A DNA stretch of 64,000 nucleotides from Archaeoglobus sulfaticallidus PM70-1 (lineage in GTDB: Archaea; Halobacteriota; Archaeoglobi; Archaeoglobales; Archaeoglobaceae): NCBI RefSeq assembly GCF_000385565.1, contig NC_021169.1, forward strand, positions 1,594,571-1,658,570, given 5' to 3'. Shown here in pieces: positions 25,712 to 43,434 of the stretch. The position numbers were made by a program, and so were the translations under genes. The notes under the pieces are model-generated. The model was not told the origin of the DNA and did not search any database. It saw only the letters and a list, made by a program, of their open reading frames with translations. Numbering within the stretch: position 1 is the first letter of the stretch; every line of letters starts with the position of its first letter.

Positions 25712-27163
25712 ATGGAAATAATATCGATCAAACCTCTTCTTGCAATCCTTGTATCGATGGTTGCATCCCTGCTCATCATTCTGTCCGACAAAAAGCCCAA
25801 CCTGAGAGAGTTCTGGAGCGTTATTGCTGGCATTATCAAATTCTCAATAGTCATCTCAATGGCTCCGGCTATACTGCACGGAGATGCCATAGTCCTGAAA
25901 ATCAGCGAGATAATTCCGGGATTCGTTGAGCTGAAGCTTAAAGTTGATGCTTTTGGAATGTTCTTCGCAACCACAGCATCACTGTTGTGGATTCTCAACA
26001 CCCTCTACTCGATAGGATACATGCGATCCTTGAGAGAGCACTCGCAGACAAGATATTTCGCGTGCTTTGCCATTGCACTATCAGCCACAATGGGAATATG
26101 CTTTGCCGGAAACCTCATAACACTTTACCTCTTCTACGAGATCTTGACCGTTTCAACCTACCTTCTTGTTGTTCACGAGGAGAGCGTGGAAGCTTTCTTC
26201 GCTGGCTGGAAGTATTTCGTGTATCTGCTCGGTGCATCAGTTATGCAGTTAAGCGCAATAGTTCTGACATATGTTTATACCGGAACCACTGACTTCAGCT
26301 ATGGAGGTGTTTTCGGGAACATAAAGCCCGAAATCGCAATCCTGCTTCTGATATTCTTCATCGCTGGCTATACCAAGGCTGCTGTTATGCCCTTTCATTC
26401 ATGGCTCCCCACTGCAATGATTGCCCCGACTCCTGTCAGTGCCTTGCTTCATGCGGTGGCAGTTGTTAAGGCAGGAGTATTCTCGATCCTTAGAGGGGTA
26501 TTCTTTATCATAGGGTATCAGAACTTGTCTGCCGACATCTCGGTCTTGTTCGCCTACTTCGTTTCCATCACGATAATAGTCGCCTCTCTGTTTGCGCTAT
26601 CTCAGGACAATCTGAAGCTCAGGCTTGCCTACAGCACGGTAAGCCAGCTTTCTTACATAATACTGGGAGCTCTGCTGCTAACCCCAAGTGGAATGATTGG
26701 AGGCATATTCCACATCGCAAGCCATGCCTTCGGCAAGATAACGCTCTTCTTCTGTGCTGGATCAATATATGTTAGCTCTGGATTGAAGAACATAAGCGAG
26801 ATGTCCGGGATTGGTAGAAAAATGCCGATCACGATGATTTCCTTTGCAATCGCAACGCTCACGATGATAGGCCTCCCCCCTGGGGCAGGATTCATAAGCA
26901 AGTGGTATCTGGCTTTAGGAACAATAGAAATGCATCAAATTCCGTTGCTGATTGTTTTGCTCGTAAGCTCAATCTTGAATGCTGGATATTTCCTGCCAGT
27001 GGTTTACAAGGCTTTCTTCGAAGACAATCCGAAGATCTCAGGCATATCAGAATCGTCGCCATTCGTGTACATACCTCTTCTCATCACTTCCATCGCTTCA
27101 GTTGCGATCTTCTTCTATCCAGATTACTTCCTGAGCTTAGCAAAACTAACGCTCGGGGTGTGA
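25712..27163 (+). CDS. Antiporter-like subunit, MrpD/NuoL/M/N superfamily (first extra copy)
   Basis: A 483-residue protein with about 14 helices. Proton_antipo_M features are visible: a glutamate on helix 5 (LITLYLFYEILTVSTYLLV), the lysine-bearing AGYTKAAVMPFHSWLPTAMIAPTPVSALLHAVAVVKAGVF, and LKLRLAYSTVSQLSYIILG. It looks closer to MrpD than to classic NuoL because it lacks the long C-terminal lateral helix. It stands where fqoL or fqoM would be expected and is followed by an 85-residue two-helix protein. Together with the gene at 27416 it seems to replace a single NuoL. Confidence 0.85.
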   Translation: MEIISIKPLLAILVSMVASLLIILSDKKPNLREFWSVIAGIIKFSIVISMAPAILHGDAIVLKISEIIPGFVELKLKVDAFGMFFATTASLLWILNTLYSIGYMRSLREHSQTRYFACFAIALSATMGICFAGNLITLYLFYEILTVSTYLLVVHEESVEAFFAGWKYFVYLLGASVMQLSAIVLTYVYTGTTDFSYGGVFGNIKPEIAILLLIFFIAGYTKAAVMPFHSWLPTAMIAPTPVSALLHAVAVVKAGVFSILRGVFFIIGYQNLSADISVLFAYFVSITIIVASLFALSQDNLKLRLAYSTVSQLSYIILGALLLTPSGMIGGIFHIASHAFGKITLFFCAGSIYVSSGLKNISEMSGIGRKMPITMISFAIATLTMIGLPPGAGFISKWYLALGTIEMHQIPLLIVLLVSSILNAGYFLPVVYKAFFEDNPKISGISESSPFVYIPLLITSIASVAIFFYPDYFLSLAKLTLGV

Positions 27164-27165
27164 GC

Positions 27166-27423
27166 ATGAATCTATCGGAGAAGTTATTCGATCTGGTAGA
27201 GAAAGGAGAGAATAGAAGGAAGCTGAGAAGGATTTTTTACATAGTGCTTGCCATCACATTCATATCAGATTTCTTCATCAGAAGAGAACATGTGGAGTTT
27301 GTCTGGCAGGCAATACCTGGTTTTGCCTCGTTCTACGGCTTCATTTCATGCATCTTCATCATAGTTTTCTCCAAATGGATCGGGCACAGATGGTTGATGA
27401 AAGAGGAAGATTATTATGACTGA
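27166..27423 (+). CDS. Small two-helix protein between antiporter-like subunits
   Basis: An 85-residue protein from ATG 27166, two bases after the previous stop. A basic N-terminus (GENRRKLRRIF) precedes two hydrophobic segments (YIVLAITFISDFFI and FYGFISCIFIIVFS). It ends in HRWLMKEEDYYD; a terminal E-D-Y-Y-D is a recurring feature of small proteins next to Mrp-type subunits in other anaerobes, as I recall. A larger frame begins upstream inside the previous gene but is not needed. Likely an accessory or structural subunit of the complex. Confidence 0.75.
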   Translation: MNLSEKLFDLVEKGENRRKLRRIFYIVLAITFISDFFIRREHVEFVWQAIPGFASFYGFISCIFIIVFSKWIGHRWLMKEEDYYD

Positions 27424-29194
27424 CTTCTTTTACCCCTTCTTTCCTCCCTCGCTGATATTCATTCTGTCAGCAATAGCAGTCCCACTCCTGAAGGGGAAGA
27501 TAAGAAACATATATCTGCTAACAATACCGGTAATAGCCTTCCTGGACCTTCTCAGGATGGAGAGCGGGATACACCACTCCTACGAGTTCATGGGCTATAA
27601 CCTCGTTCTGTCAAGAGTTGATGATCTGAGCATGGTCTTTGCCTATGTTTTCGTGATAATGGCATTCGCTGGGGTGCTGTATGCACTGCATTCAAAAAAC
27701 AATCTGGAGTTTGCTTCAGCCTTCATATACATAGGAAGTTCGCTGGGAGTTGTTTTTGCTGGAGATCTATTCACACTATACATCTTCTGGGAGATAATGG
27801 CAGTATCTTCAGTTTTCCTGATCTGGCTTAACAGTGATCCGTGGCAGGAGAAAAAGAAAGCCTTACAGGCAGGGTTCAGGTACATAATGGTTCATGCTGC
27901 CGGAGGAGTCATACTGCTTGGAGGAATAGTGCTTTACATCCTGAACACCGGCTCGATAGAATTCGATAAGATAATTTATGGAGATCTTGCCTCGGTACTG
28001 ATCCTGATAAGCTTTATGCTGAACGCTGCAGTCCCACCGCTTTCCGCATGGCTCTCTGATGCTTATCCGGAAGCAAGCGTTACCGGATCTGTTTACATGA
28101 CCGCGTACACAACAAAAACAGCAGTTTATGTCCTTCTGAGGGCTTTCTCAGGAGTGGAGATTTTAATCTGGCTCGGAGCGATAATGGCAGTATATGGAGT
28201 TATATATGCCGTTCTTGAGAACGATATCAGGAGGTTGCTGGCATACCACATAATAAGCCAGGTTGGGTACATGGTAGCTGGAGCTGGGATCGGAACGGAG
28301 ATGGCAATTAATGGTTCAGCGAGTCACGCGTTCTGCCATATTCTGTACAAAGCCCTGCTGTTCATGGGTGCCGGAGCTGTGATCCATGTCACAGGCAGAA
28401 GAAAGCTCACAGAACTTGGAGGGGTGTACAGATACATGCCTATCACCTTAGCCCTCTACATGATTGGGGGTTTCTCAATTTCAGCCTTCCCGCTGTTTAG
28501 CGGGTTTGTAAGCAAATCCATGGTCATTTCAGCCTCAGCAGAATCTCATCTTCCGCTCATCTGGCTGATGCTCACTCTAGCCTCATCAGGAACCTTCCTG
28601 CATACCGGACTGAAGCTTCCATACTTCACATTCTTCGGCCAGAATTCTGGATTGAGGGCTAAGGAACCCCCAGCCAACATGTTGCTTGCAATGCTGTTTC
28701 TTGCAATCCTCTGCATTTTCATCGGAGTCTATCCGGATGTGCTTTACAGCATTCTGCCATATCCGGTTCACTTTGAGCCATACACAGCACAGCACATTTC
28801 AGAGACAATGCAGATTCTGCTATTCACGGCACTCGGATTCTTCCTTCTCCTTGGTAAGCTGGCTGGAGAGCCAACAATTAGCCTCGACACAGACTGGTTC
28901 TACAGAAAGGGTGCGAAGCTCTTCATGTGGTTTATAAGGAACCCTCTCGCTAACTTAGGTCTGCTCCTCGAGAGGTTTTTCTTCAACAAATTCCCAAAAG
29001 CCATTCTGAACTTCACAGATCTGTGGATTGCATTTGATCTGCATGTGGTGGATGGTGCTGTCAACGGAATATCCAGTGCTACGATTTTTGTCTCTGAGAA
29101 GGTTAGAAGAATCCAGATGGGAGACCTGCAGAACTACATCTCCATCTTTATCGCTGGGATGGCTGTGCTGATGATGCTCCTGTGGTTGTGGTAG
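27416..29194 (+). CDS. Antiporter-like subunit, NuoL/MrpD type with C-terminal extension
   Basis: A 592-residue membrane protein overlapping the small gene by 8 bases. The antiporter core is clear: the helix-5 glutamate in FTLYIFWEIMAVSSVFLIW, RRLLAYHIISQVGYMVAG, and HAFCHILYKALLFMGAGAVIH. Some usual positions differ: the HAATMVKAG-type segment reads TAYTTKTAVYVLLR. After residue 470 an extension with a long amphipathic region (DTDWFYRKGAKLFMWFIRNPL, then SEKVRRIQMGDLQNYI) resembles the lateral helix and final helix of NuoL, so I take this as the functional NuoL equivalent. Confidence 0.85.
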   Translation: MTDFFYPFFPPSLIFILSAIAVPLLKGKIRNIYLLTIPVIAFLDLLRMESGIHHSYEFMGYNLVLSRVDDLSMVFAYVFVIMAFAGVLYALHSKNNLEFASAFIYIGSSLGVVFAGDLFTLYIFWEIMAVSSVFLIWLNSDPWQEKKKALQAGFRYIMVHAAGGVILLGGIVLYILNTGSIEFDKIIYGDLASVLILISFMLNAAVPPLSAWLSDAYPEASVTGSVYMTAYTTKTAVYVLLRAFSGVEILIWLGAIMAVYGVIYAVLENDIRRLLAYHIISQVGYMVAGAGIGTEMAINGSASHAFCHILYKALLFMGAGAVIHVTGRRKLTELGGVYRYMPITLALYMIGGFSISAFPLFSGFVSKSMVISASAESHLPLIWLMLTLASSGTFLHTGLKLPYFTFFGQNSGLRAKEPPANMLLAMLFLAILCIFIGVYPDVLYSILPYPVHFEPYTAQHISETMQILLFTALGFFLLLGKLAGEPTISLDTDWFYRKGAKLFMWFIRNPLANLGLLLERFFFNKFPKAILNFTDLWIAFDLHVVDGAVNGISSATIFVSEKVRRIQMGDLQNYISIFIAGMAVLMMLLWLW

Positions 29195-29209
29195 CATGGT
29201 TGTGGTACC

Positions 29210-30682
29210 ATGTTGATCTCAGCCATGCTTCTGGTTCTGCTGATTGGATCGCTGTCTGCTTTTGCCACAAAAAGAGAGGTTTCCAGAGTGGTTGCACTGA
29301 TATCTGCTTTCATCGCATTTCTGATCTCAGTTATGATGCTCCTGAACATGGATAACGGCTTTAACCACGAGGAGAACATTTCATGGGTTAGCTCACTTGG
29401 AATATCATACCATGTTGGAGTTGATGGCCTGAGCATGCCGATGGTACTGCTCACAACATTCATCTCATTACTGTGCGTGATCTACGCCTGGGAGGAGAGG
29501 TTTAAGGCCAATCAGTTCTTCGGGTTAATTATCCTTCTGGATTTTGCTTTGGTCGGAGTTTTTTGCTCCTTAGATTTCTTCCTCTTCTACATATTCTGGG
29601 AGATCGTGTTAATTCCGATGTTCTTCGTGATAGGGATCTGGGGAGGGGAAAGAAAGGACTATTCAGCTATCAAGTTCCTGATATATACTCATGTTTCGAG
29701 CGTTGTGATGCTCGCAGGGATCTTCGCAATTTACCACTTCAACTGGATTGACACCGGAAAAGCTACCTTTGATATCCTAACACTGCTCAAAAACTACTCC
29801 AGCATTGAAATACCACAGCTGTGGAAGGATTTCATATTCCTCGCATTGCTCTTTGGCTTCCTTGTCAAGATGCCAGCCGTGCCGTTCCACACATGGCTTC
29901 CCGATGCACATGTTGAGGCACCAACAGTCGGATCAATTCTCCTGGCTGGAGTTCTGCTTAAGATGGGTGGATATGGTCTGCTGAGATTCCTGGTTCCAAT
30001 GAGCTCAAACGCATCAGAATTTTTCGTTCTGCTGATAGCAATTTTTGGAGCTGTGAGCATAATATACACACCTTTTGCAGCCTTACCGCAGAAGGATATC
30101 AAGAGGCTCATCGCATTTTCGAGCATCGGACACATGGGATTCGTGAGTCTAGGGATGGCTGCAGCTTTGATGGCGGGAGATGTTAAATACAGAGTTCTTG
30201 CATTGAGCGGTGCTGGATTCCAGCTATTCGCACATGGGATAATCACCTCTGTCATGTTCGGATCTGCAGGGGTTATCCAGCACCATGTTGGCAGTAGACT
30301 TTTTGAGAAGCTTGGTGGGCTAATGAAGAGCATGCCCAAGTTTTCCTTCTTAATGGTCATCGGATTTTTCGCTTCAATGGGTTTCCCGGGAATGGCCGGG
30401 TTTGTTGCCGAGTTCTCAGTGCTTGCAGGAGCTTTAGCATTAATGCCGCTATTTGCAATAATAGCTCTGGCAAGCATACCGCTCAGCATAATATACCACA
30501 TCTATGCACTCCAGAGATCAGTGTTCGGCATTCCGAAAAAGGAATACTCAGAGGCTTACTTCCATGAACTGCTGCCATTGCTGATCTGGGTTGTGGCTAC
30601 GGTGGTGCTGGGTATTCATCCATCTCCGGTGTTTGATATGTTCAAGGATGCCGCATTGTCGATGCTGGAGGTGCTGAAGTGA
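29210..30682 (+). CDS. fqoM: Fqo/Nuo-type complex I subunit M
   Basis: A 490-residue, 14-helix antiporter-like subunit. NuoM features: ISYHVGVDGLSMPMVLLTTFI, the helix-5 glutamate in FFLFYIFWEIVLIPMFFVIGIWGGERKDYSA, PFHTWLPDAHVEAPTVGSILLAGVLLKMGGYG, and KRLIAFSSIGHMGF. Starts 15 bases after the NuoL-like gene and overlaps fqoN by an ATGA. Confidence 0.92.
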   Translation: MLISAMLLVLLIGSLSAFATKREVSRVVALISAFIAFLISVMMLLNMDNGFNHEENISWVSSLGISYHVGVDGLSMPMVLLTTFISLLCVIYAWEERFKANQFFGLIILLDFALVGVFCSLDFFLFYIFWEIVLIPMFFVIGIWGGERKDYSAIKFLIYTHVSSVVMLAGIFAIYHFNWIDTGKATFDILTLLKNYSSIEIPQLWKDFIFLALLFGFLVKMPAVPFHTWLPDAHVEAPTVGSILLAGVLLKMGGYGLLRFLVPMSSNASEFFVLLIAIFGAVSIIYTPFAALPQKDIKRLIAFSSIGHMGFVSLGMAAALMAGDVKYRVLALSGAGFQLFAHGIITSVMFGSAGVIQHHVGSRLFEKLGGLMKSMPKFSFLMVIGFFASMGFPGMAGFVAEFSVLAGALALMPLFAIIALASIPLSIIYHIYALQRSVFGIPKKEYSEAYFHELLPLLIWVVATVVLGIHPSPVFDMFKDAALSMLEVLK

Positions 30683-32091
30683 TGTTAACGCTAATACCCC
30701 TGATAGCCACCGGGATTATCCCAATCTTTTACATCTTCCCCGGACTGTTCCTCAAAAAGAAGAGATACTTCGCATTCACAAGCATGATTTTGCTGACAAT
30801 AGCTATAATCTTCACTTTAATTTACTGGAATGCTGAAAGCGAGTTCTATTCTCTCAGAATCACGCCATTCTCACAGTTCTTCTCACTCGTGTTCTTAACC
30901 GTAGCCCTTTTCGTTTGCTTATCTTCGCTGAATTCGGTGAGCAGATTCGAAGATGAATACTATTTCCTGATCTTGCTCTCAACTTTCGGAATGATGGTTG
31001 TTTCGATGTCCTCAGACTTCATAATGCTCTTTATCGCCTTTGAAATTGCGAGCATCGCAACCTATGCACTGGCTGGATTTGAGAAGGGCTCTGAATTCAG
31101 CGTTGAGGCTGCTTTCAAGTACTTCATTTTCGGCGGTTTCTCCTCAGCTTTACTCCTGTTCGGAATTTCAATAGTTTACGGGTATGCCGGAAGTGTTGAG
31201 ATTGCTAGCATCACCAGAATGGCTGAGATGGAACCAACAGCATACTCGACGATAGGCCTGGTGATGATAGTTGCTGGCTTTGGATTCAAATCCGCACTGG
31301 TTCCATTCCACATGTGGGCCCCCGACACATATCATGGCTCTCCAACACCCATCTCCGCTTTGCTTGCCAGCTCTGCAAAGAAGATGGGCTTTGCAGGTAT
31401 GTTCAAGGTGATGATTCTCATGGCTTTGGCCATTAAGCTGGAGATGTACGTCCTGATGGCAGTTATAGCAGTCATAACCATGACCCTGGGCAACCTTGCC
31501 GCTTTGATGCAGGAAAGCATAAAGAGAATGCTTGCCTATTCCTCGATCGCACATGCTGGATACATATCGATGGCCTTTGCGATATTCGCAATCTCAGGAA
31601 TGGACATGGCTCTGGCTGGAGCTTTTCTGCATGTTTTATCTCATGCTATTGCCACAGCCTGCGCGTTCGTTACAGTAGCGTATGCTGGGGGGTACATATT
31701 GGATAAAGCTGACAGCTTCAACAGTCTTGGGAGGAGGAAACCGCTCATAGGCATTTCCATGAGCATCATACTACTCTCCCTTGCTGGAATACCACCAACC
31801 CTTGGGTTTTACTCAAAGTTCGTTCTCTTTCTCTCTGCAATAGAGGCAAAGCTACTGTGGCTGGCTTTGATAGCCCTTCTGAACTCTGCTCTCTCTCTGT
31901 ACTATTACTCGAAGGTTATAATGAGAATGTTCTGGAAGCACGAAAAAATGGTAGAGTTTATAAGGGAAAAAGATAAAGAATGTACAGTAGTAATCGTTGC
32001 AGGGGCTCTGATACTCGTAGTACTGGGAATTCTTGCAGGGCCAGTAACAGAGTGGGCCTTGAGTTCAGCGAGGGTTTTGGTTTTGAAATAG
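30679..32091 (+). CDS. fqoN: Fqo/Nuo-type complex I subunit N
   Basis: A 470-residue antiporter-like subunit. NuoN features: FIMLFIAFEIASIATYALAGF, the motif VPFHMWAPDTYHGSPTPISALLASSAKKMGF with its conserved lysines, and KRMLAYSSIAHAGYISMA. Last recognisable core subunit of the operon; the HEAT-repeat gene follows 14 bases later with its own RBS. Confidence 0.92.
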   Translation: MMLTLIPLIATGIIPIFYIFPGLFLKKKRYFAFTSMILLTIAIIFTLIYWNAESEFYSLRITPFSQFFSLVFLTVALFVCLSSLNSVSRFEDEYYFLILLSTFGMMVVSMSSDFIMLFIAFEIASIATYALAGFEKGSEFSVEAAFKYFIFGGFSSALLLFGISIVYGYAGSVEIASITRMAEMEPTAYSTIGLVMIVAGFGFKSALVPFHMWAPDTYHGSPTPISALLASSAKKMGFAGMFKVMILMALAIKLEMYVLMAVIAVITMTLGNLAALMQESIKRMLAYSSIAHAGYISMAFAIFAISGMDMALAGAFLHVLSHAIATACAFVTVAYAGGYILDKADSFNSLGRRKPLIGISMSIILLSLAGIPPTLGFYSKFVLFLSAIEAKLLWLALIALLNSALSLYYYSKVIMRMFWKHEKMVEFIREKDKECTVVIVAGALILVVLGILAGPVTEWALSSARVLVLK

Positions 32092-32105: not shown

Positions 32106-33131
32106 ATGTGGTTATTTGGGAATCAAAATGTTGAAAGCCTCAGGATTAAGGGAAATGTAAAGGGACTGATCAAGCTGCTCGAAGATGAGGATCCTGAAGT
32201 CAGAGCGGGTGCAGCCGATGCTCTGAGCGACTTCGACAAGCCAGAAGTCATATCAGCTTTGATCAATACTCTGGCAGATAAAAACAGAGAGGTTAGGTGG
32301 AGGAGTGCAAAATCACTGGAAAGACTATGCAGAGACAAAACCGATGTGCTAATACAGGCTTTTATCGACAGTAAATCCATTTTCCAGAAAGTAACCCTCG
32401 CATACATACTCGGCAGACTTGGAGATAAGAAGGCGATAGCTCCGCTGGCTGAAGCACAGAACTTTGGAGACAAGTATGTCAGGAGGGCCAGTGTAATCGC
32501 GCTGGGCAGGATCAGGGATGAAAGGAGTCTGTACTACCTCATACAATCCCTCAAGGATCCAGATGCAGATGTCAGGAAGAGAGCAGTAGAGTCTATCGGT
32601 AGAATCGGGATTCTGAATGATGAGGTAAAAAAAACCTTGCTAGATAGCCTGAAGGATGAAAACTATGAGGTAAGGAAAGCCTCTGCTAAAACCATCGAAA
32701 GACTTGGATTGAAGCTAGAAGATAACGAAGAGTTGGCATTATATCTCTCAGCATTGATGAGGGGTGCCGAACTGATTCTGCTCGGAGATAAAGCAATCGA
32801 TGCCCTTGAGATTGCACTTAAAGATGAGGACTGGAACATAAAGAAGTGGGCTTCAGAAGTTATTTCGGATATTGGTGGAGACAAAGCAATAGCTATACTC
32901 AAAAAACTCGCTGAAGATGAGGACTGGACCGTTAGATACCATGCAGTTTCTGCTTTAGGAAGGTTAAAACAGATAGACTTGCTGATAAAACATTTGGATG
33001 ATCCAGACCCGAATGTAAGAGATCTCGCCATAGAGTACATAAAAGATTTCGTGAAAGTTATTGAGAGGAAGGATAGTAAAAAAGCGGAAAAGCTTAAAGA
33101 AATTCTACAGAAACACAACATTCAGGTTTAG
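32106..33131 (+). CDS. HEAT-repeat (PBS-lyase type) protein at the end of the Fqo operon
   Basis: A 341-residue soluble protein built almost wholly of about ten helical HEAT repeats of roughly 30 residues. Examples are EDEDPEVRAGAADALSDF, DKNREVRWRSAKSLERL, KDPDADVRKRAVESIGRIG and DDPDPNVRDLAIEYIKDF. The start ATG 32106 (MWLFGNQ) is chosen because AAAGGAG lies just ahead; the frame is open upstream inside fqoN. Such proteins are scaffolds for protein contacts. Its co-transcription with the complex suggests an assembly or stabilising role, which is inference. Confidence 0.8.
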   Translation: MWLFGNQNVESLRIKGNVKGLIKLLEDEDPEVRAGAADALSDFDKPEVISALINTLADKNREVRWRSAKSLERLCRDKTDVLIQAFIDSKSIFQKVTLAYILGRLGDKKAIAPLAEAQNFGDKYVRRASVIALGRIRDERSLYYLIQSLKDPDADVRKRAVESIGRIGILNDEVKKTLLDSLKDENYEVRKASAKTIERLGLKLEDNEELALYLSALMRGAELILLGDKAIDALEIALKDEDWNIKKWASEVISDIGGDKAIAILKKLAEDEDWTVRYHAVSALGRLKQIDLLIKHLDDPDPNVRDLAIEYIKDFVKVIERKDSKKAEKLKEILQKHNIQV

Positions 33132-33271
33132 CAAGTATCGCTATCGCAAAACAGATCGTAAATCCCATCAAATCCTTGCATGTCTTGCCTAACCTTGCCT
33201 CAATATATATTATTTTTGAGTCCTAATTGTATTTCAAAAAAAAGAATGTTTTGCTCGAAATTTGCACTTTG

Positions 33272-33456
33272 TTGACACTCTCCACGGCTAAAGCCGGGAG
33301 ATTCTTACTTCTAAGGCTCTCATCCCCATCCAACCTGCATCGGGCTTTTACCCTTCAACCCGTCGTCTGCCCCAGAAACGAGGGGTGTGCCAGCACCCCC
33401 CGTTCCCCGTCGTCCGACAGGAGGACGGGTATTCAATTTAGTTCGAATGCAAGGTA
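33272..33456 (-). repeat. IS200/IS605-type right end with structured omega-RNA-like region (copy 2)
   Basis: On the minus strand this ends with a hairpin (CGGCTAAAGCCG at 33285-33296) and GAGAGTGTCAA, matching copy 1 near 2170. Further in are a stem ACCCGTC (33358-33364) with GACGGGT (33424-33430) and, inside it, GGGGTG (33382-33387) with CACCCC (33394-33399). Such nested stems just inside the right end are typical of the guide-type RNA encoded at the 3' end of tnpB. There is no tnpB in the flank, so it is a solitary end. GC-rich unlike its surroundings. Identification rests on the end sequence and folding only. Confidence 0.6.
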
Positions 33457-33636
33457 ATTTAAACTTAATTCTCCACCAACTCCCTCCAACCTCCCTAATT
33501 CATCTCACAGTTAAATCCTTGAGCTTTCTTAGCAACTTTCTGTATTATTTCCCACTTCAACAAACCCCCTACCGCTGGAGGTTGTTCGATGGTAGGAAAT
33601 AATTCCGGGGAAAATTTTGCTCGAAATTCGAAAAAC

Positions 33637-33678
33637 TTAAATTTACCTTTATCTCAAATCAAACAAACTTTAGGTGAT
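33637..33678 (+). promoter_or_regulatory. Promoter and RBS of the peptide/radical SAM pair
   Basis: TATA-like TTAAATTTA at 33637-33645, about 40 bases before the ATG at 33682, leaves room for a short leader holding AGGTGAT (33672-33678). This supports the tiny frame downstream being translated. Confidence 0.5.
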
Positions 33679-33681
33679 ATT

Positions 33682-33762
33682 ATGAGCTACAGATACGAAT
33701 GCAAATACAAAGGCGGTGGACTGACACATTATGTCATGCAAAGCAAAGATTCTCCATTTTAA
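33682..33762 (+). CDS. 26-residue putative RiPP precursor peptide (CbpA-like)
   Basis: ATG 33682 to TAA 33760-33762, 26 residues. It has a good ribosome binding site (AGGTGAT, 3 bases before the ATG) and sits 24 bases ahead of a peptide-modifying type radical SAM/SPASM gene. The peptide starts MSYRYECKYKGGG, followed by LTHYVMQSKDSPF: one Cys at position 7, four Tyr, a Gly triplet and a His. Radical SAM enzymes of the CbpB type are known to be encoded next to very short peptides (CbpA). I believe this is such a precursor, but the assignment is from context and memory of the family. The modified residue is not predictable. Confidence 0.6.
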   Translation: MSYRYECKYKGGGLTHYVMQSKDSPF

Positions 33763-33786
33763 TTTTTTTATTTAAGAGGTGGAAAA

Positions 33787-35034
33787 ATGCTCGATTCTCT
33801 TGAAATAAACGGCAAATCAATCAAGTTTGATCCAGAAACGAATTTCTGGGGAGTTGGTGGCGAAGAGATAGAAGAACTTTACAGTAAAATAAGAAAGGAC
33901 TTGATAAAAGAAATGAATGAACTACGGTTCGAGAGGAACCTGGTTTTGCTGTATGTAAATCCGACCGATGCCTGCAACGCTGGATGTCCCTATTGCTATA
34001 TCCCTCCATCAGTCAAATCTAGAAGGAAAAAGATGAGCTATGATGAGCTGGCTTACATTGCAGAGAAGGCTATAGAGTTTCTGGGCAACAGCGTAGTTGT
34101 CTTCCATGGAACCGAGCCTTTATTGAACAAGGATAACATATTCCGAATTATTGAAGACTACAGCGATAAACTCAATTTCGGAATTCAAACCAATGGTCTG
34201 CTCCTCGAAGAGGAGGATGTGGAGTTTATAAAGAAGCTTGAAGTCAATGTTGGCTTATCGCTCGACTCCCCACACAAAGAAACGAACGATTTTCTCAGAG
34301 GAAAAGGTAGTTTCGACAAGATATCTGAGTTGCTTGAGCTGTTTGATAACTACAGTGGTTTAAATGTCGTAACAACCATAACAAAATACAATCAAAACCA
34401 TCTAAAAGATATGGTCGATTTTCTGAGCGGTAAGGTCTCCCTGTGCCTGATGAACCCTGTCAGAGCAACCCAGAAGGAGGCTATTGATTTCAGACCAGAT
34501 CCGAAAGAGGCTGCAGTGAATTTCATAGAGGCTGTTGAAAGAGCAATTGAGCTGACAAAAAGCGGGAAAAGAATAGTTGTTGCTGACTTCGCGAATGTGC
34601 TTCTCGGATTAGTTGCTCCATCTGCGAAAGTTTTGATGTGCGACATCTCACCATGCGGAGGAGGAAGGAGATTTTTCTCGATAACCGCTGATGGAAGTTG
34701 TTATCCGTGTGGAGAGTTCATAGGAACTGAGTTCTGTGGGGGCAACATATTCAGGGATGATTTCGAGAAGATAATAAATTCCAAAGCTTTTGCAGCAGTT
34801 ACCAAGAGAAAAGTTGAGGACATTCCAGAATGCCGGGATTGTGTTTTCAGGAACTTGTGCGGTGCTCCATGTCCTGCCGAGATCCTTTCAACCGATGGTA
34901 CAATGTATGCCAAAAGTTACTACTGTGAGTTCTACAAGGAGATTGCAAAACACACCTTCAGGGTTATTCTGAGGGATGATGTATGGTTCGTGCTGAAGAA
35001 AGATTCGCTGACCGAGAAATACAGGGTTCGATGA
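33787..35034 (+). CDS. Radical SAM/SPASM peptide-modifying enzyme (CbpB-like)
   Basis: A 415-residue enzyme. A short N-terminal domain (1-50) is followed by the radical SAM core with CNAGCPYC (C63, C67, C70) binding the SAM-cleaving [4Fe-4S] cluster, FHGTEPLL, and LSLDSPHKETNDFLRG. The C-terminal SPASM-type region holds many cysteines (CDISPCGGG, CYPCGEF, CGGNIF, CRDCVFRNLCGAPCP, YYCEFYK) for extra clusters. This architecture fits enzymes that modify ribosomal peptides or a protein active-site residue. The small peptide gene just ahead favours the peptide-modifying CbpB type over an anaerobic sulfatase-maturase role. Ribosome binding site GAGGTGG precedes ATG 33787. Confidence 0.8.
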   Translation: MLDSLEINGKSIKFDPETNFWGVGGEEIEELYSKIRKDLIKEMNELRFERNLVLLYVNPTDACNAGCPYCYIPPSVKSRRKKMSYDELAYIAEKAIEFLGNSVVVFHGTEPLLNKDNIFRIIEDYSDKLNFGIQTNGLLLEEEDVEFIKKLEVNVGLSLDSPHKETNDFLRGKGSFDKISELLELFDNYSGLNVVTTITKYNQNHLKDMVDFLSGKVSLCLMNPVRATQKEAIDFRPDPKEAAVNFIEAVERAIELTKSGKRIVVADFANVLLGLVAPSAKVLMCDISPCGGGRRFFSITADGSCYPCGEFIGTEFCGGNIFRDDFEKIINSKAFAAVTKRKVEDIPECRDCVFRNLCGAPCPAEILSTDGTMYAKSYYCEFYKEIAKHTFRVILRDDVWFVLKKDSLTEKYRVR

Positions 35035-35083
35035 AATTTTGAGATCTAACAAATGTTATATTGAACATTAACCAAATTTAATT

Positions 35084-35728
35084 ATGAGGCTCAGATTTCT
35101 TTTATTGATTGTAATCGTACTTTTGATGCTGGGCTGTGCTTCTGAAGAAGAACATCCTGCAGAAGAAGAGTCTAGCAGAATAGTAGAAAAAATTATTGAA
35201 TACGATCATGGTAAACCAAGACTTTTAAACGAGAGTGAAGAGAGAACTGCGGAAAAATTGCTGCTTCCCAAGTTACACAAGATAAATGTTCAGGCAAGAT
35301 GCGTGTTCGATGAAAGTACAGTAGAGGGTATAAAACAGAGCAACTTCGTGATCGAGATCATCTTCAGGGAGCCAATATCCATAACGACAAGCCTAATCGA
35401 CGATGGCAACTACAGAGTCATAGAAAATGTAAGCAAGGCTCTTTTCGTAGTGAATGGATCAATGGACATTATACTCCTTCTCAGCGGCAAGATGTACAGC
35501 TGCTGGAAAATAGAAGGTCAATTCTGTGGAAGGTCAACCTATGGCAAATGCGAGAACGATAATGACTGTGTGGTCGATGGATGTTCGTCACAGATCTGTA
35601 GGTCTGTATATGAAGAGCCAGTAATTACAACATGTGAGTGGAAGGACTGTTATGACTCCTTAAAGTATGGCTACGGATGCAAGTGCGTGAACCAGAAGTG
35701 TCAGTGGGTCAAACTATGGCCCAATTGA
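35084..35728 (+). CDS. Lipoprotein with C-terminal Cys-rich (eight-cysteine-cluster) domain
   Basis: A 214-residue exported protein. Residues 1-18 form a lipoprotein signal (MRLRFLLLIVIVLLMLGC). An acidic linker follows, then a beta-rich middle domain (about 45-140). The last 60 residues hold a dense cysteine pattern: CGRSTYGKC, NDCVVDGCSSQIC, TTCEWKDC, GCKC and KC. This resembles the eight-cysteine-cluster domain seen in Thermococcales and Archaeoglobales proteins. The start looks leaderless: a TATA-like TTATATTG lies about 25 bases upstream. The radical SAM gene just ahead is on the same strand, but a functional link is only possible, not shown. Confidence 0.7.
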   Translation: MRLRFLLLIVIVLLMLGCASEEEHPAEEESSRIVEKIIEYDHGKPRLLNESEERTAEKLLLPKLHKINVQARCVFDESTVEGIKQSNFVIEIIFREPISITTSLIDDGNYRVIENVSKALFVVNGSMDIILLLSGKMYSCWKIEGQFCGRSTYGKCENDNDCVVDGCSSQICRSVYEEPVITTCEWKDCYDSLKYGYGCKCVNQKCQWVKLWPN

Positions 35729-35794
35729 ATTTTAATTATTAATTATCGTCAAAATTCGGGTAAATAAATGTTTTTTCAAGGATTAAAAGCCAAA

Positions 35795-35806
35795 ATTTTT
35801 ATAGAA
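35795..35806 (+). promoter_or_regulatory. TATA-like promoter of the Hdr operon
   Basis: AATTTTTATAG lies about 25-30 bases before ATG 35826, placing transcription start at or next to the start codon, so the first gene would be leaderless. Inferred from spacing only. Confidence 0.4.
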
Positions 35807-35825
35807 TATTGTTTAACGGTTTTGC

Positions 35826-36737
35826 ATGACCGAAACAGCTAAGGGTTCAATAATTATCGACGAAAAGAAATGCATAAGCTGCGGAATCTGTGTCTCACTA
35901 TGTCCCCATAACGCTCTATCGCTTGAAAATGGCATACCAGTTACCACAGGAAAATGCAAGGTTTGCGGGATATGCTCAGCCTCATGCGTAACCAAAGCAA
36001 TTTCAATGAAGTCCAAGAAGTTCACAGATGATGGATTGCTTGAGAGCTTTAATGGAAATCTGAAAGACCCGAAGATAGCTGTTTTCTCATGCAGAAAGCT
36101 TGTTAAAGAGCTAATTAAAGAGAAAAAATTCGAGAATGCCGGGATAATATCTATGATGTGTAGCGGAAGAATAGACATGACAATGATGGCTGAGGCTTTC
36201 AGGAGGGGAGCTTGGGGCATTATCGTTGCTGGATGTCAGGAGTGCAGCAACAAATACGGCAGTAAAGAGGCAATGGTAAAAGTGGATGTCATGAAAAAAG
36301 TGCTCGAGCAGATGGGTGAAAATCCAGGCAGAATAATGTTCATTTACGGAAATCCTGAGGAAGAAATCACCAGATTCTCCGAAAAGCTAAATGAGCTTGG
36401 AAAACCGGAACTCGATTTCGAGATTGTTAAAGAGGTTGTTGAGGACAGGGTTTTGAGGAGCTTTACCGCAAAGAAGAGGTCTCTTGTTGAGGAAGGGAAT
36501 GTTTACGGAGAAAAAGTTGACGTGGAAAGAATGAACAAACTCATAGAGGATAGCATAGCCTTCGCAATAAACGCAGGCAAATTGCTGAGGGTTATGGATT
36601 ACACGAGCATCGAAGAGCTGGCAGAAAAAACCGGAATGGATAGCAGAGAAGTTGTTAAGACGATTCTCGAAATGAGAAGAAGAGGTATGATTAATTTTGA
36701 GACTAAAGATGAACTTAAATGCGTTTCAGGGGTGTGA
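35826..36737 (+). CDS. Ferredoxin-MvhD fusion protein
   Basis: A 303-residue redox protein with three parts. Residues 1-60 carry two [4Fe-4S] motifs (C16, C19, C22, C26 in CISCGICVSLCP; second in CKVCGICSASC). Residues about 80-185 are an MvhD-type domain with FSCRK, MMCSGRID and AGCQEC, expected to hold a [2Fe-2S] cluster that hands electrons to HdrA. The last 100 residues are helical and end in a winged-helix-like SIEELAEKTGMDSREVVKTILEMRRRGM. It opens the operon and is one of two MvhD proteins in it. Confidence 0.85.
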   Translation: MTETAKGSIIIDEKKCISCGICVSLCPHNALSLENGIPVTTGKCKVCGICSASCVTKAISMKSKKFTDDGLLESFNGNLKDPKIAVFSCRKLVKELIKEKKFENAGIISMMCSGRIDMTMMAEAFRRGAWGIIVAGCQECSNKYGSKEAMVKVDVMKKVLEQMGENPGRIMFIYGNPEEEITRFSEKLNELGKPELDFEIVKEVVEDRVLRSFTAKKRSLVEEGNVYGEKVDVERMNKLIEDSIAFAINAGKLLRVMDYTSIEELAEKTGMDSREVVKTILEMRRRGMINFETKDELKCVSGV

Positions 36738-36739
36738 AA

Positions 36740-39724
36740 ATGAGCGGTGCTGTGCTTGTAGTTGGTGGTGGAATTGCCGGAATGCAATCCGCTCTAGATC
36801 TGGCGGAATCAGGATTCAAGGTTTACCTGCTTGAGAAACTTCCAGCAATTGGAGGCAGAATGTCGCAGATAGATAAGACATTTCCAACAAACGACTGTGC
36901 GATGTGTATCCTGTCTCCAAAGTTAAACGAAGTGGGAAGGCATGAAAATATTGAGATAATAAACAACTCAGAGCTTCTGAGCGTTGAAGGAGAAGCTGGA
37001 GACTTTACGGTTAGAATCAAAAGGAATCCACTGTATGTGGACATGGACAGATGTACTGGTTGTGGGGAATGTGCAAAAGCCTGTCCTGTGAATGCGATAG
37101 ATGAGTACAATGAAGGCTTATCTTTCAGATCGTCGATTTACATCCGATACCCGCAGGCAGTACCCAAGGTCTATGCGATCGACAAGGAGAAGTGCATAGG
37201 TTGCGGGATATGTGAGAATGTTTGCGTTGCAAAGGCAATCAACTACAACCAGAGGCCAGAGGAAATCGAGCTTAAGGTTGGCTCAATCATCCTGACACTT
37301 GGTGGGAAGCTGGCAGACCCGGTGGAGAGAGGAGAATACGGATACGGGATATTCCCGAATGTCGTTACAGGAATCCAGTTTGAGAGATTGCTCTCAGCAA
37401 CTGGCCCGTTTGAGGGGCATGTTTTGAGAGCAGATGGGAAGGAACCAAAGAGAATAGCCTTCATTCAGTGCGTTTGTTCGAGAGATGAGAAAACCAATCC
37501 ATGGTGCTCCTCGGTTTGCTGCACATACGCCACCAAGCACGCGATCATAGCGAAAGAGCATATGCCGGATGTCGAAACCCACATTTTTGTGATGGATCTC
37601 AGAACATTCGGCAAGGGTTTTGAGGAGTACGCTAAAAGGGCTGAAGAGGAATATGGAGTTGTTTACAAGTATGGTAGAGTTTCCGTTGTAATGCAAAAGC
37701 CGAATGGAAATCTGATTCTCAAGTACGAGAAGGATGGAAGGACATTTGAAGAAGAATACGACATGGTTGTTCTCTCTACAGGATTCGAGCCTCCAGAAGA
37801 GGCTAAGAAGTATGCGGAAATTCTCGGTATCGAGCTTAACGAATACGGGTTCTGCAAGACGGATCCATTCAAGCCACTAGAAACAAACAAGCCGGGAATA
37901 TTCGTTGCAGGAGTGTTCAGCGAGCCAAAGGATATTCCTGAAAGTGTTGCACAGGCAAGCGGTGTTGCTGCAAGAGCTTCAAGCCTCATAGCCCAAGATA
38001 GAGGAAAGTTCGTTTCAGTCAAGGAATATCCGCCAGAAAGGGATGTTACGGGTGAGCCTCCAAGGATAGGTGTTTTCGTGTGTCACTGCGGTATAAACAT
38101 AGCATCGGTTGTTGATGTTGAGAAGGTTGCCGAATACGCGAAAACCCTTGACAATGTTGTCTATGCAGAGCACAACCTGTTCACATGCTCTGCTGACACT
38201 CAAGAGAGGATGAAGGAGATCATCAATAGGTACAACCTAAACAGAGTTGTTGTGGCTGCATGCACACCGAGAACCCACGAGGCTCTGTTCAGAAACACTT
38301 TAAGAGAGGCTGGGCTGAACCCATACCTGTTCGAGTTCGTGAACATCAGAGAGCACTGCAGCTGGGTGCACATGAGGGAGCCTGAGAAGGCAACGGAGAA
38401 GGCGATGGATCTTGTCAGATCTGGAGTTGCTAAAGCTCGACTGCTCGAGCCTCTTCCGTATGTAGAAGTTGATATAAACAAGAAGGCTCTCATAATCGGA
38501 GGCGGTCTCGCAGGGATGACATGTGCACTTGAGCTTGCCGAGCAGGGATTCGAGAGCTACATCGTTGAGAAAGAGGCTGAACTTGGAGGTAATCTCAAAC
38601 ACCTTTTCTACACGATTGATGGCAAGAACCCACAGGAGCTTCTGAAAGAGCTTGTTGAGAAAGTGGAGAAAGAGCCGAAGATAACCGTTTTCAGGAATGC
38701 AAGGATCGAGAGCATAGACGGCTTCGTCGGGAACTTCAGATCGAAAATAAGTGTGGATGGAGAGGTTAAAGAGGTTGAGCATGGGGTTGTCATCGTGGCA
38801 ACCGGTGCAGAAGAATACAAGCCCAGAGAATATGAGTATGGAAAGAACCCGAAGGTCATAACACAGGTTGAACTCGAAGAGATGCTCGCAAGGGGAGAGG
38901 CTCCTGAAAGCGTTGTGATGATACAGTGTGTGGGCTCAAGAAACGATGAGAGGCCATATTGCAGCAGAATCTGCTGTCAGACCGCAATTAAGAACGCTCT
39001 CAAGATCAAAGAGCTCAACCCTGATGCAGATGTTCTGATACTCTACAGAGATATCAGAACCTACGGATTCATGGAGAAGTACTATGCCCTTGCAGGAGAG
39101 AAGGGAGTTGTTTTTGTCAGATATGATGAAAACAATCCGCCAAAGGTTGAGGGAGATTCGGTAATATTCCTTGACAGAATCCTTGAGGAGGAGATATCCT
39201 ACAGCCCGCAGTATATAGTGCTCAGCTCCGCAACGATCCCGAGAAAAGATAATGAGGAAATCTCGAAGATGCTCAGGGTCCCGCTGAATGAGAACGGCTT
39301 CTTCCTTGAGGCACATCCAAAGCTCAGGCCGGTTGATTTTGCATCCGAAGGAATATATCTCTGCGGACTAGCCCACAGTCCGAGACTAATTCAGGAAACG
39401 ATATCTCAGGCCTGTGCAGCAGTTTCAAGGGCCCTGACCATACTGACCAAGGACAAAATGGTCATGGATGCGAGCAAAGCGTTCGTTGTTAGAGAGAGGT
39501 GCGATGCCTGTGGCCTGTGTGTTAAAGCCTGTCCGGTGAATGCGATTGAGCTAAAGCAGTTCGAGAACAGAGGAGTTGTGGAACTGAAAGCTGAGGTTAA
39601 CAGGGCTGTATGCTTAGGATGTGGAGTATGTCATGCCACATGCCCGAAGAGTGCCATAGTCGTCAAGGGATTCACAATAGACCAGATAAAGGCGATGGTT
39701 GAGGCTATAGCAGTTGTGAGGTGA
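36740..39724 (+). CDS. hdrA: HdrA-type iron-sulfur flavoprotein, long form
   Basis: A 994-residue cytoplasmic flavoprotein, started at ATG 36740 (MSGAVLVVGGG) after GGGGTGTG. Modules in order: FAD site GGGIAGM at 8-14; HdrA Cys motif DCAMCILSP at 52-60; two ferredoxin motifs near 105 and 152; a CHCGINIASVV/CSADTQ/ACTPRTHEALF cluster domain (about 445-540); a second FAD-type module GGGLAGM near 585; and two more ferredoxin motifs near 922 and 958. Usual HdrA is about 650 residues, so this carries an extra flavin module. HdrA is where flavin-based electron bifurcation occurs in Hdr complexes. Four bases separate it from the MvhD gene. Confidence 0.92.
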   Translation: MSGAVLVVGGGIAGMQSALDLAESGFKVYLLEKLPAIGGRMSQIDKTFPTNDCAMCILSPKLNEVGRHENIEIINNSELLSVEGEAGDFTVRIKRNPLYVDMDRCTGCGECAKACPVNAIDEYNEGLSFRSSIYIRYPQAVPKVYAIDKEKCIGCGICENVCVAKAINYNQRPEEIELKVGSIILTLGGKLADPVERGEYGYGIFPNVVTGIQFERLLSATGPFEGHVLRADGKEPKRIAFIQCVCSRDEKTNPWCSSVCCTYATKHAIIAKEHMPDVETHIFVMDLRTFGKGFEEYAKRAEEEYGVVYKYGRVSVVMQKPNGNLILKYEKDGRTFEEEYDMVVLSTGFEPPEEAKKYAEILGIELNEYGFCKTDPFKPLETNKPGIFVAGVFSEPKDIPESVAQASGVAARASSLIAQDRGKFVSVKEYPPERDVTGEPPRIGVFVCHCGINIASVVDVEKVAEYAKTLDNVVYAEHNLFTCSADTQERMKEIINRYNLNRVVVAACTPRTHEALFRNTLREAGLNPYLFEFVNIREHCSWVHMREPEKATEKAMDLVRSGVAKARLLEPLPYVEVDINKKALIIGGGLAGMTCALELAEQGFESYIVEKEAELGGNLKHLFYTIDGKNPQELLKELVEKVEKEPKITVFRNARIESIDGFVGNFRSKISVDGEVKEVEHGVVIVATGAEEYKPREYEYGKNPKVITQVELEEMLARGEAPESVVMIQCVGSRNDERPYCSRICCQTAIKNALKIKELNPDADVLILYRDIRTYGFMEKYYALAGEKGVVFVRYDENNPPKVEGDSVIFLDRILEEEISYSPQYIVLSSATIPRKDNEEISKMLRVPLNENGFFLEAHPKLRPVDFASEGIYLCGLAHSPRLIQETISQACAAVSRALTILTKDKMVMDASKAFVVRERCDACGLCVKACPVNAIELKQFENRGVVELKAEVNRAVCLGCGVCHATCPKSAIVVKGFTIDQIKAMVEAIAVVR

Positions 39725-39728
39725 TTTT

Positions 39729-40142
39729 ATGGAGGATTTCGAACCAAAAATTCTGGTTTTTGCCTGTAACTGGTGCTCATATGCCGGGGCGGATTTAGCC
39801 GGAACGAGCAGAATACAGTACACGCCGAACATCAGAATCGTGAGGGTCATGTGTTCTGGAATGGTCAACCCGGCGATGATACTCTACGCTTTCAAGAAGG
39901 GTGTTGACGGAGTTGTTGTTGCGGGATGCCATCCCGGTGACTGCCACTACAATGTTGGTAACTACTACGCCAAGAAGAGGATCGTTTTGCTCAAAGAGCT
40001 GCTTGAGTTCGTTGGATTCGATAGTGAGAGGCTTATGCTCATCTGGGCTTCGGCTGCTGAGGGCAAGAAGTTCGCTGAGGAGATGACGAAGTTTGCAGAG
40101 AAGATCAAGCAACTTGGCCCGCAAAAGAAGTTCAGGAGGTGA
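39729..40142 (+). CDS. mvhD: MvhD-type [2Fe-2S] electron-transfer subunit
   Basis: A 137-residue stand-alone MvhD (delta subunit). Motifs: FACNWCSYAGADLAG, VMCSGMVNP and GCHPGDCHY; these cysteines bind the [2Fe-2S] cluster linking an electron-input partner to HdrA. In methanogens the partner is the MvhAG hydrogenase. No hydrogenase genes are present here; the next genes encode Flx-like proteins. It is the second MvhD domain in the operon. Confidence 0.9.
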   Translation: MEDFEPKILVFACNWCSYAGADLAGTSRIQYTPNIRIVRVMCSGMVNPAMILYAFKKGVDGVVVAGCHPGDCHYNVGNYYAKKRIVLLKELLEFVGFDSERLMLIWASAAEGKKFAEEMTKFAEKIKQLGPQKKFRR

Positions 40143-40146
40143 AAAG

Positions 40147-41091
40147 ATGGAGCAGTATGCTGAGAACCTCAGAAAAAGAATTGCGGAGCTATTGGAAAAG
40201 GATGTTGATGCTTTTATCGTATTTGCAAGGAAGAAGAGCGAGCCGAGAGAGAAGATTACTGTGATAGAGTCTCCAGATGAGGTTGAAGATGTGACGATTT
40301 CGAGGTTGAGCTCATACAACCCAGCAATAACCCTCATGCAGGAACTGAATAAAAGAGACAAAGTGGGAGTTGTCGTAAAGGGCTGCGACTCTAAAGCGAT
40401 AAAGAAGCTGATGATGGAGGATAAGATCGACAGAGAGAGGGTTTACATAATAGGCGTTACATGCGATGGTGTAGCGAACTATAGGAAAATCGTCGAAGCT
40501 GTCGGGTCTGATTTCAAGATAGAGGGGGATAAGATTGTAGCGGGAGACACCGTTCTGAACATAGACGATTTCATCTACGACAATTGCAAGTACTGTGATG
40601 CCCCAACTCCGGTGATATACGACGAACTCTTTGGCGAAATTAAAACCGTGGAGAGGGATTTCTCAGACATAGAAGAGTTCGAGAAACTCTCGAGAGAGGA
40701 GAGATGGGAGTACTGGATGAAGGAGATGGAGAAGTGCATAAGGTGCTACGCCTGCAGGAGTGCCTGTCCGATGTGCTACTGCACCGAATGCCTTGTGGAT
40801 CCCGTAAATCTTGCCGTATCACCAATGACGAAAGCTGAGGAGAAAGCCATGTACCCGAGATTCCTCGGAAAAACTGTGAACGCGAGTGACAACCTGTTCT
40901 ATCATCTGATAAGGGTTATACACCATGCAGGAAGGTGTGCGGATTGTGGTGAGTGCGAAAGAGCCTGCCCAATGGATATACCGCTGAGGAAGCTTGAGAG
41001 GAAGCTCGAAAAGGAGATCATCGAGATTTTTGGTGGGATTCCAGAAGACATCCCGTTCCTCGCAAAGCTTGACATAATTCCGGAGAGGTGA
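40147..41091 (+). CDS. FrhB/FlxC-like iron-sulfur protein, coenzyme or flavin oxidoreductase partner
   Basis: A 314-residue protein, started at ATG 40147 (MEQYAENLRKRI) after AGGAGGTGAAAAG. The N-terminal two thirds resemble the FrhB/FdhB fold (KVGVVVKGCDSKAIKKLM, VYIIGVTCDG, CKYCDAPTP). The C-terminal third has ferredoxin-like motifs (CIRCYACRSACPMCYCTECLV and CADCGECERACPMDIP). Proteins of this kind occur in FlxABCD-HdrABC clusters of anaerobic sulfate reducers. It should bind several [4Fe-4S] clusters. Whether it also holds a flavin is uncertain. Confidence 0.8.
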   Translation: MEQYAENLRKRIAELLEKDVDAFIVFARKKSEPREKITVIESPDEVEDVTISRLSSYNPAITLMQELNKRDKVGVVVKGCDSKAIKKLMMEDKIDRERVYIIGVTCDGVANYRKIVEAVGSDFKIEGDKIVAGDTVLNIDDFIYDNCKYCDAPTPVIYDELFGEIKTVERDFSDIEEFEKLSREERWEYWMKEMEKCIRCYACRSACPMCYCTECLVDPVNLAVSPMTKAEEKAMYPRFLGKTVNASDNLFYHLIRVIHHAGRCADCGECERACPMDIPLRKLERKLEKEIIEIFGGIPEDIPFLAKLDIIPER

Positions 41092-42056
41092 TGATTATGT
41101 ACATTTTTGAGGGTGATTTCTTTAAATCACTGTTTGACGAGCTCAAAAGTAAAGGATACAGAATTTACATACCCGACGGGTATGGTTTTAAAGAGGGTGA
41201 AGAGATAAAAGAGATAAAGAGATCCAAAAAATCAGCAAAGGAGTTTTTCCTCCCTCAGAACGAGATTCTCATAAAGTACAGTGACTGGGTTGAGGATGTA
41301 CCAGTAGATAACGAAAAGAGGGCGATAGTTGTCAGTCCATGCGATGCGAGAGGCATAACTCTGCTCGACAAGGTGTTCCTTGATGGACTTGTCGATCCAT
41401 ATTATAAGGCAAGAAGAGATAACAGCTTGGTGATATCAATTGCATGCAACAAGGCTGGAGATTACTGCTTCTGTGAAAGCCTTGGATTCTCACCCTACTC
41501 CTCAGAAGGTTCAGATGTTTTTGTGGCCGAGGTAGATGGCAAATACTTCATCGAACTCAGCGATAAGGCAAAAGATATCCTCGACATTGAATTAAAAGAG
41601 GCTGATGAAAATGACATTGAAAAATTCAGAGAGAAGGAGAATGAAGTTAAGTCCACCTTCAAGAGAAAGCTCAACATTGAAGGCCTATCCGGGAGACTGA
41701 AAGAGAACTTCGAAAGCGATTACTGGAAGAAAGTCTCCATAAACTGTGTCGGTTGTGGGATCTGCACATTCCTCTGTCCAACCTGCTTCTGCTTTGATAT
41801 GCTTGATGAGGGTGAGAAGGAGGGCTTCAGATACAGAGCATGGGATTCCTGCCAGTTCCCGTTGTACACTCTCGAAAGCTCAAGCCACAATCCCAGAAAT
41901 GAGAAGTGGCAGAGGCTGAGGAACAGGTTCTATGACAAGTTCCTTTACATGCTCGAAAACAAGGGAGAGATCTTCTGCGTTGGATGCGGAAGGTGCATCT
42001 CGGAGTGTCCTGCGGGAGTGGATATTGTTGAAGTTCTTGAGGAGGTGGGCAGATGA
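41091..42056 (+). CDS. FlxC/HydB-like 4Fe-4S dicluster protein
   Basis: About 321 residues, from ATG 41091; GTG 41088 and ATG 41097 are close alternatives behind the same GGAGAGGTGAT. The N-terminal domain (VVSPCDARGITLLDKVFLDG, IACNKAGDYCFCESLG) and the C-terminal dicluster part (CVGCGICTFLCPTCFCFDM, RAWDSCQF, CVGCGRCISECPAGVDI) match the beta subunit of sulfhydrogenases and Flx clusters, which sits next to the NAD(P)H-flavoprotein. It overlaps the next gene by 4 bases. Confidence 0.82.
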   Translation: MIMYIFEGDFFKSLFDELKSKGYRIYIPDGYGFKEGEEIKEIKRSKKSAKEFFLPQNEILIKYSDWVEDVPVDNEKRAIVVSPCDARGITLLDKVFLDGLVDPYYKARRDNSLVISIACNKAGDYCFCESLGFSPYSSEGSDVFVAEVDGKYFIELSDKAKDILDIELKEADENDIEKFREKENEVKSTFKRKLNIEGLSGRLKENFESDYWKKVSINCVGCGICTFLCPTCFCFDMLDEGEKEGFRYRAWDSCQFPLYTLESSSHNPRNEKWQRLRNRFYDKFLYMLENKGEIFCVGCGRCISECPAGVDIVEVLEEVGR

Positions 42057-42889: not shown

Positions 42890-42901
42890 GGAGGTGTTAT
42901 C

Positions 42902-43429: not shown

Positions 43430-43434
43430 TAGAA

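Follow-up and report, generated by a model that had tools for sequence, protein, structure and literature searches.

The pairs PqqA/PqqE and MftA/MftC, each composed of a very small dedicated precursor and a SPASM enzyme, make peptide-derived cofactors. CbpA and CbpB resemble them in this composition and in a likely housekeeping rather than antibiotic role, but differ in sequence and regulation, and no peptidase or later enzymes of a route are linked to cbpAB. NCBIfam includes CbpA and CbpB as curated families (TIGR04164, 'cobo_pep', and TIGR04163, 'rSAM_cobopep', respectively), and these names hint that the curators knew of a link to cobalamin or cobalt. Most of cobamide biosynthesis is considered to be resolved. 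Our literature search found no paper on CbpA/CbpB or on a RiPP associated with a B12 riboswitch and, as far as this search shows, the riboswitch, operon and tree evidence for cbpAB given below is undescribed in the literature.

The analysed stretch of DNA (64 kb, hereafter the window) is part of a closed 2.08-Mb archaeal genome (G000). Its family accounts for most of the loci labelled Archaeoglobaceae in the genome collection (e.g., L093, L098 and L095, from the genomes G146, G141 and G155, respectively), and the window was therefore taken to be from Archaeoglobaceae. The preliminary description had reported a 26-codon gene with a ribosome-binding site, followed after 24 bases by a radical SAM/SPASM gene, and re-reading of the sequence showed that its coordinates were exact, the 24 bases being the gap between the stop codon of cbpA and the ATG of cbpB at 33787. 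The reported composition of the peptide (one Cys, one His and four Tyr) was also correct. The features of the locus are summarized in Table 1.

Table 1. Features of the cbpAB locus, with positions in the window
Feature	Position	Strand	Basis
TATA-like CTTAAATTTA, possible archaeal promoter of cbpAB	33636..33645	+	Sequence only, tentative
Shine-Dalgarno-like GGTGAT before cbpA	33673..33678	+	Sequence
cbpA homologue, 26-aa precursor peptide MSYRYECKYKGGGLTHYVMQSKDSPF	33682..33762	+	ATG at 33682, TAA ends at 33762
Conserved core YRYECKYKGGGLTHYVM of CbpA	33688..33738	+	Family pattern [YF]Rxx-C-x(n)-G-x-G-L-[ST]-H-[YF]-[IVM]; 80 distinct peptides, archaea and bacteria
Shine-Dalgarno-like GAGGTGG before cbpB	33776..33782	+	Sequence
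cbpB, 415-aa radical SAM/SPASM peptide maturase	33787..35034	+	TIGR04163, Pfam Radical_SAM and SPASM, AlphaFold2
CbpB radical SAM motif C63-x3-C67-x2-C70	33973..33996	+	Homologue alignment
CbpB SPASM region with C285, C290, C308, C349, C352, C358, C362 and C380	34639..34926	+	Alignments

When all six frames of the window are read, the core motif of CbpA is present a single time, and shuffling the 1.67 Mb of collected loci three times never produced it, showing that the cbpA frame is more than a chance occurrence. When cbpA of the window was compared with its closest homologues, which are from Hydrothermarchaeota, the substitutions were mostly in the third codon position (e.g., 2/2/18 for the three positions), and this excess indicates selection on the protein. 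Fifty bases past cbpB lies a gene (35084-35728) whose lipoprotein-like product contains an eight-cysteine-cluster domain (TIGR04289, 60 bits). This gene has a TATA-like TTATATT and no Shine-Dalgarno sequence, which suggests that it forms its own leaderless transcript and probably does not belong to the cbpAB unit. The flanks of cbpAB contain genes similar to those for membrane subunits of proton-pumping oxidoreductases and a HEAT-repeat gene on one side (25712-32091), and a heterodisulfide-reductase-like gene cluster on the other (35826-44325).

The enzyme of the window, in which Pfam recognizes the Radical_SAM and SPASM domains, matched the CbpB profile TIGR04163 with 473.2 bits over residues 3-398, which is 98 bits above the curated cut-off of 375. 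The preliminary description had named a better match to a sulfatase maturase as an outcome that would speak against its reading, and the sulfatase-maturase model gave 113 bits against a cut-off of 349. Scores with the models of PapB, DynA, sulfatase maturase, HxsB and the SCIFF maturase ranged from 103 to 118 bits, far under their cut-offs. The CxxxCxxC motif and the eight SPASM cysteines were conserved in an alignment of 19 homologues and, by analogy with anSME and CteB, the latter cysteines may be the ligands of two auxiliary clusters. An AlphaFold2 model of CbpB (pLDDT 89.5) had CteB and anSMEcpe as its nearest solved folds. The best structural match, the thioether-forming SCIFF maturase CteB (PDB 5WGG, 5WHY), shares with CbpB a radical SAM core and a two-cluster SPASM domain, but the identity is about 20%, the SCIFF model gave 103 bits on CbpB against a cut-off of 425, and the SCIFF substrate has six Cys whereas CbpA has one. 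CbpB also differs from CteB in having no recognizable RRE domain; no Pfam PqqD match was found, and in the model the barrel is preceded at the N-terminus by only three strands and one helix. The fold of anSMEcpe (PDB 4K36-4K39) is common with that of CbpB across about 370 columns (TM 0.8 by target). In the sulfatase maturase, the catalytic residue Asp277 follows the third AuxI cysteine, and it aligns to Gly309 of CbpB (YPCDFYV vs YPCGEFIG). In addition, the partner of CbpB is a dedicated small peptide. Identity as a sulfatase maturase was rejected because of the profile score and the Gly at the position of the catalytic Asp; judged by its sequence, the enzyme is a CbpB-family peptide maturase.

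The claim that the peptide is CbpA-like held for homology and not for formal membership. The peptide of the window matched TIGR04164 with E=1.5e-7 and shares the core and the position upstream of the enzyme gene with the family, but its score of 30.8 bits lies 4 bits under the curated cut-off of 35. Seven of ten other clear CbpA homologues likewise fell under this cut-off, suggesting that CbpA is probably under-annotated, and the peptide scored 63 bits with a purpose-built CbpA profile. These searches indicate a CbpA homologue that is not a formal member of TIGR04164. Archaeal and bacterial peptides, 80 distinct ones in all, share the core C-x(n)-G-x-G-L-[ST]-H-[YF], and in the peptide of the window it is represented by C7 and by GLTHY at residues 13-17. 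Among the peptides bearing the motif, the Cys, Gly-Leu and His are invariant, as was partly built into the search pattern, and the Ser/Thr and Tyr/Phe are near-invariant, while the spacing from Cys to Gly varies. The Tyr is replaced by Phe in some members and the Ser/Thr by Ala in one, so that these hydroxyls of the core are not essential. A metal-binding or redox function, which the preliminary description had considered, is possible for the peptide. The C-terminal tails are SPF in most archaea and TPKK-like in Desulfobacterota, and one archaeal CbpA stops directly after GGLTHFV. A peptide from a Sedimenticola MAG (L139:2234-2461) has two tandem cores, CDADGVGLSHYILMDK and CSADGVGLSHYILMDK. 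The variable tails and this tandem arrangement suggest a conserved unit of about 17-20 residues.

The small frame had been expected to be conserved with the enzyme in relatives, and this was borne out. An alignment-based scan of genome contigs found relatives, whereas a single-sequence scan of the contigs found none, and none were found in viral contigs. Among 393 genomes of the phylum, a profile made from 38 peptides matched all 39 that have CbpB over the cut-off (Fisher p ~1e-50, uncorrected for relatedness). It also matched three further genomes, in which CbpB is nearly deleted between CbpA and CobT, truncated, or split over contig ends; one extra match, at E=0.007, was at noise level. By a strict pattern, CbpA was found upstream of CbpB in 89 of 96 scanned loci. 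As for the remaining loci, CbpA is present in L147 and L159 beyond the frame limits of the scan, has the variant GLAHYIL in L163, and is encoded on a different contig in the genomes of L119 and L121; the truncated locus L047 has a weak CbpA match upstream, and L153 has no upstream sequence. In an ANME-1 genome (L185, G137:C73), an in-frame fusion joins CbpA to the final ~30 residues of CbpB directly before cobT, which looks like the outcome of a CbpB deletion. A Thermodesulfobacteriaceae MAG (L192:170-1584) has, away from its CbpB, an orphan CbpA after another radical SAM/SPASM protein, for which TIGR04084 was the best NCBIfam match, with a score under the cut-off. In the family Archaeoglobaceae, CbpB is carried by 27 of 55 genomes and a CobT-type gene by 50 of 55, so that cbpAB is optional and not a core step; being nearly universal there, CobT presence was dropped as a discriminator within the family.

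An Rfam scan of 42 bacterial loci, which were the best-scoring ones rather than a random sample and include close relatives, revealed in 31 of them a cobalamin riboswitch (RF00174) that lies on the strand of cbpA and precedes it by 78-240 nt, against about 0.3 expected at random placement. Three of the 11 loci without the riboswitch have too little upstream sequence, and thus it is absent upstream of cbpA in 8 of the 39 loci that have enough. The only other match in these loci is in L139, 3' of cbpB and before the gene for cobyrinic acid a,c-diamide synthase (cbiA). The riboswitch loci are mostly from MAGs, some of whose taxon labels may be wrong; by these labels they belong to Thermodesulfobacteriota, Myxococcota-labelled Deltaproteobacteria, Planctomycetota, Lentisphaerota, Spirochaetota, Actinomycetota, Chloroflexota and Pseudomonadota, and they include one from an isolate, Desulfacinum infernum DSM 9756 (L140). 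No RF00174 match was found at 33000-36000 of the window.

The neighbouring genes of several homologues also point to cobamides. CobT (TIGR03160, over the cut-off) is encoded after cbpB in five ANME-1, three Methanoliparia and three Desulfobacterota loci, often at a distance of 1-20 bases or with an overlap. The cobT-linked cbpB genes fall into at least four separate clades of the CbpB tree, including two clades of Desulfobacterota, indicating that this linkage has originated or been retained on more than one occasion. A Desulfobacterales locus (L138) has the operon cbpA-cbpB-cobT-cobS-cobD-cbiB, in which CobD is threonine-phosphate decarboxylase and cobS, cobD and cbiB are aminopropanol and nucleotide-loop genes. 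In L139, the second riboswitch is followed by cbiA and cbiF in a transcription unit that contains a chelatase-like gene. G141, a genome of the same family as the window, has a TIGR00303 CobT-type gene 1.4 kb downstream of cbpAB. Of 38 CbpB genomes, 29 have the corrin-ring gene CbiC and 32 have CobT. Across Archaeoglobaceae, no conserved neighbours of cbpAB were found. In several ANME-1/Methanoliparia loci (L058:4934-5836; L049-L054, L066, L075, L076), a protein with ribbon-helix-helix and AIR-synthase/ThiL/HypE-like parts is encoded divergently from cbpA. Its model has a low pLDDT (63), and Foldseek gave folds of the HypE/ThiL/PurM type; as a lead from this model, it might be an archaeal regulator or a cobamide-related, alpha-ribazole-kinase-like protein.

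The pair of the window differs from such relatives in having neither the riboswitch nor a cob gene beside it, and a B12 role for this pair thus rests on homology. CbiC and a TIGR00303 CobT-type gene are present in the genome, both away from cbpAB. In the CbpB tree, the enzyme groups with those of Hydrothermarchaeota and Methanoliparia (100/99), apart from the other 28 rows, which are mostly from Archaeoglobaceae and among which are two genomes of the same genus as the window. This position suggests that cbpAB of the window was acquired horizontally.

The reading of the locus as a RiPP precursor with its modifying enzyme is supported by the CbpB score and by the conservation of the frame with the enzyme. 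From what was observed, namely a conserved coding pair, the family of its enzyme and the genomic ties of the homologues to B12, we consider it reasonably probable that CbpB modifies CbpA and that the product serves cobamide metabolism, probably in late assembly or in corrinoid/cobalt handling. In this proposal, CbpA would be the precursor and CbpB its maturase, which would use one SAM-binding and two auxiliary [4Fe-4S] clusters and modify the peptide by radical chemistry, probably cross-linking the invariant Cys and/or the GL(S/T)H(Y/F) core. The mature product would be made when cobamide is short. It would presumably be intracellular, as no exporter or protease gene is linked, and would most likely act at the lower-ligand/nucleotide-loop stage or in the handling of corrinoid or cobalt; the copy in the window would act as its relatives do. 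A stronger form of this proposal, which we consider unlikely, is that the modified ribosomal peptide is a working part of B12-family cofactors in archaea and bacteria, either as the lower axial ligand or its precursor activated by CobT, or as a peptide ligand holding the corrinoid while the nucleotide loop is assembled.

The modified peptide could also be a ligand of cobalt or corrinoid at low B12, binding through its Cys and His as an intracellular chaperone or a secreted metallophore, with no lower-ligand role. The core has Cys and His as its invariant side chains, control by the riboswitch would suit the acquisition of cobalt or corrinoid, and the next transcription unit of L139, with its chelatase-like gene, opens with ring-synthesis genes. 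However, neither an exporter nor an uptake receptor is conserved near the pair, and the adjacency of cobT in several clades points to late assembly and not uptake; this possibility is, on balance, rather unlikely. PqqA supplies PQQ, and on this model CbpA might be cut after modification to give all or part of the cobamide lower ligand, which CobT would then activate. Such a source agrees with the close linkage to cobT, joined in L138 by cobS, cobD and cbiB, but most cbpB genes have no adjacent cobT, no peptidase gene is linked and the core Tyr is replaceable by Phe, and we think it quite unlikely. A second ThiC-family gene (possible BzaF) was found in none of the 26 CbpB genomes tested, which seemed to favour a peptide-derived lower ligand; the listed CbpB genomes of the phylum of the window have at most one ThiC-family gene, and many methanogens have 2-4. 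However, CbpB-negative members of the same families likewise have a single gene, so that the copy number follows ancestry, and as evidence it is suggestive but confounded.

Cobalamin riboswitches also control B12-independent alternatives, and the pair is optional within families, as might be expected if the product were a peptide cofactor or regulator of a route replacing B12-dependent enzymes at low B12. This B12-sparing function seems very doubtful, since the neighbours, where present, are cobamide-making genes and not isozymes, and most CbpB genomes make the corrin ring. Finally, the fold nearest to a thioether maturase (CteB) and the single conserved Cys donor would suit a bacteriocin-type sactipeptide or ranthipeptide with no tie to B12, and the small gene might be a chance frame beside an orphan maturase. 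Both are extremely improbable and were rejected, given that no transporter, immunity or protease genes are present, that the core is extremely conserved between archaea and bacteria, and that there are the riboswitch and cob linkage and the third-position substitutions.

The cobamide link is an addition to the earlier RiPP reading. If the proposed role of cbpAB is true, the pair would be an unrecognised part of cobamide biosynthesis or of cobalt/corrinoid handling, common to archaea and many bacterial phyla. With only two small genes in the pair, its role in B12 metabolism is now testable, and the pair of the window offers a compact, apparently transferred archaeal version.
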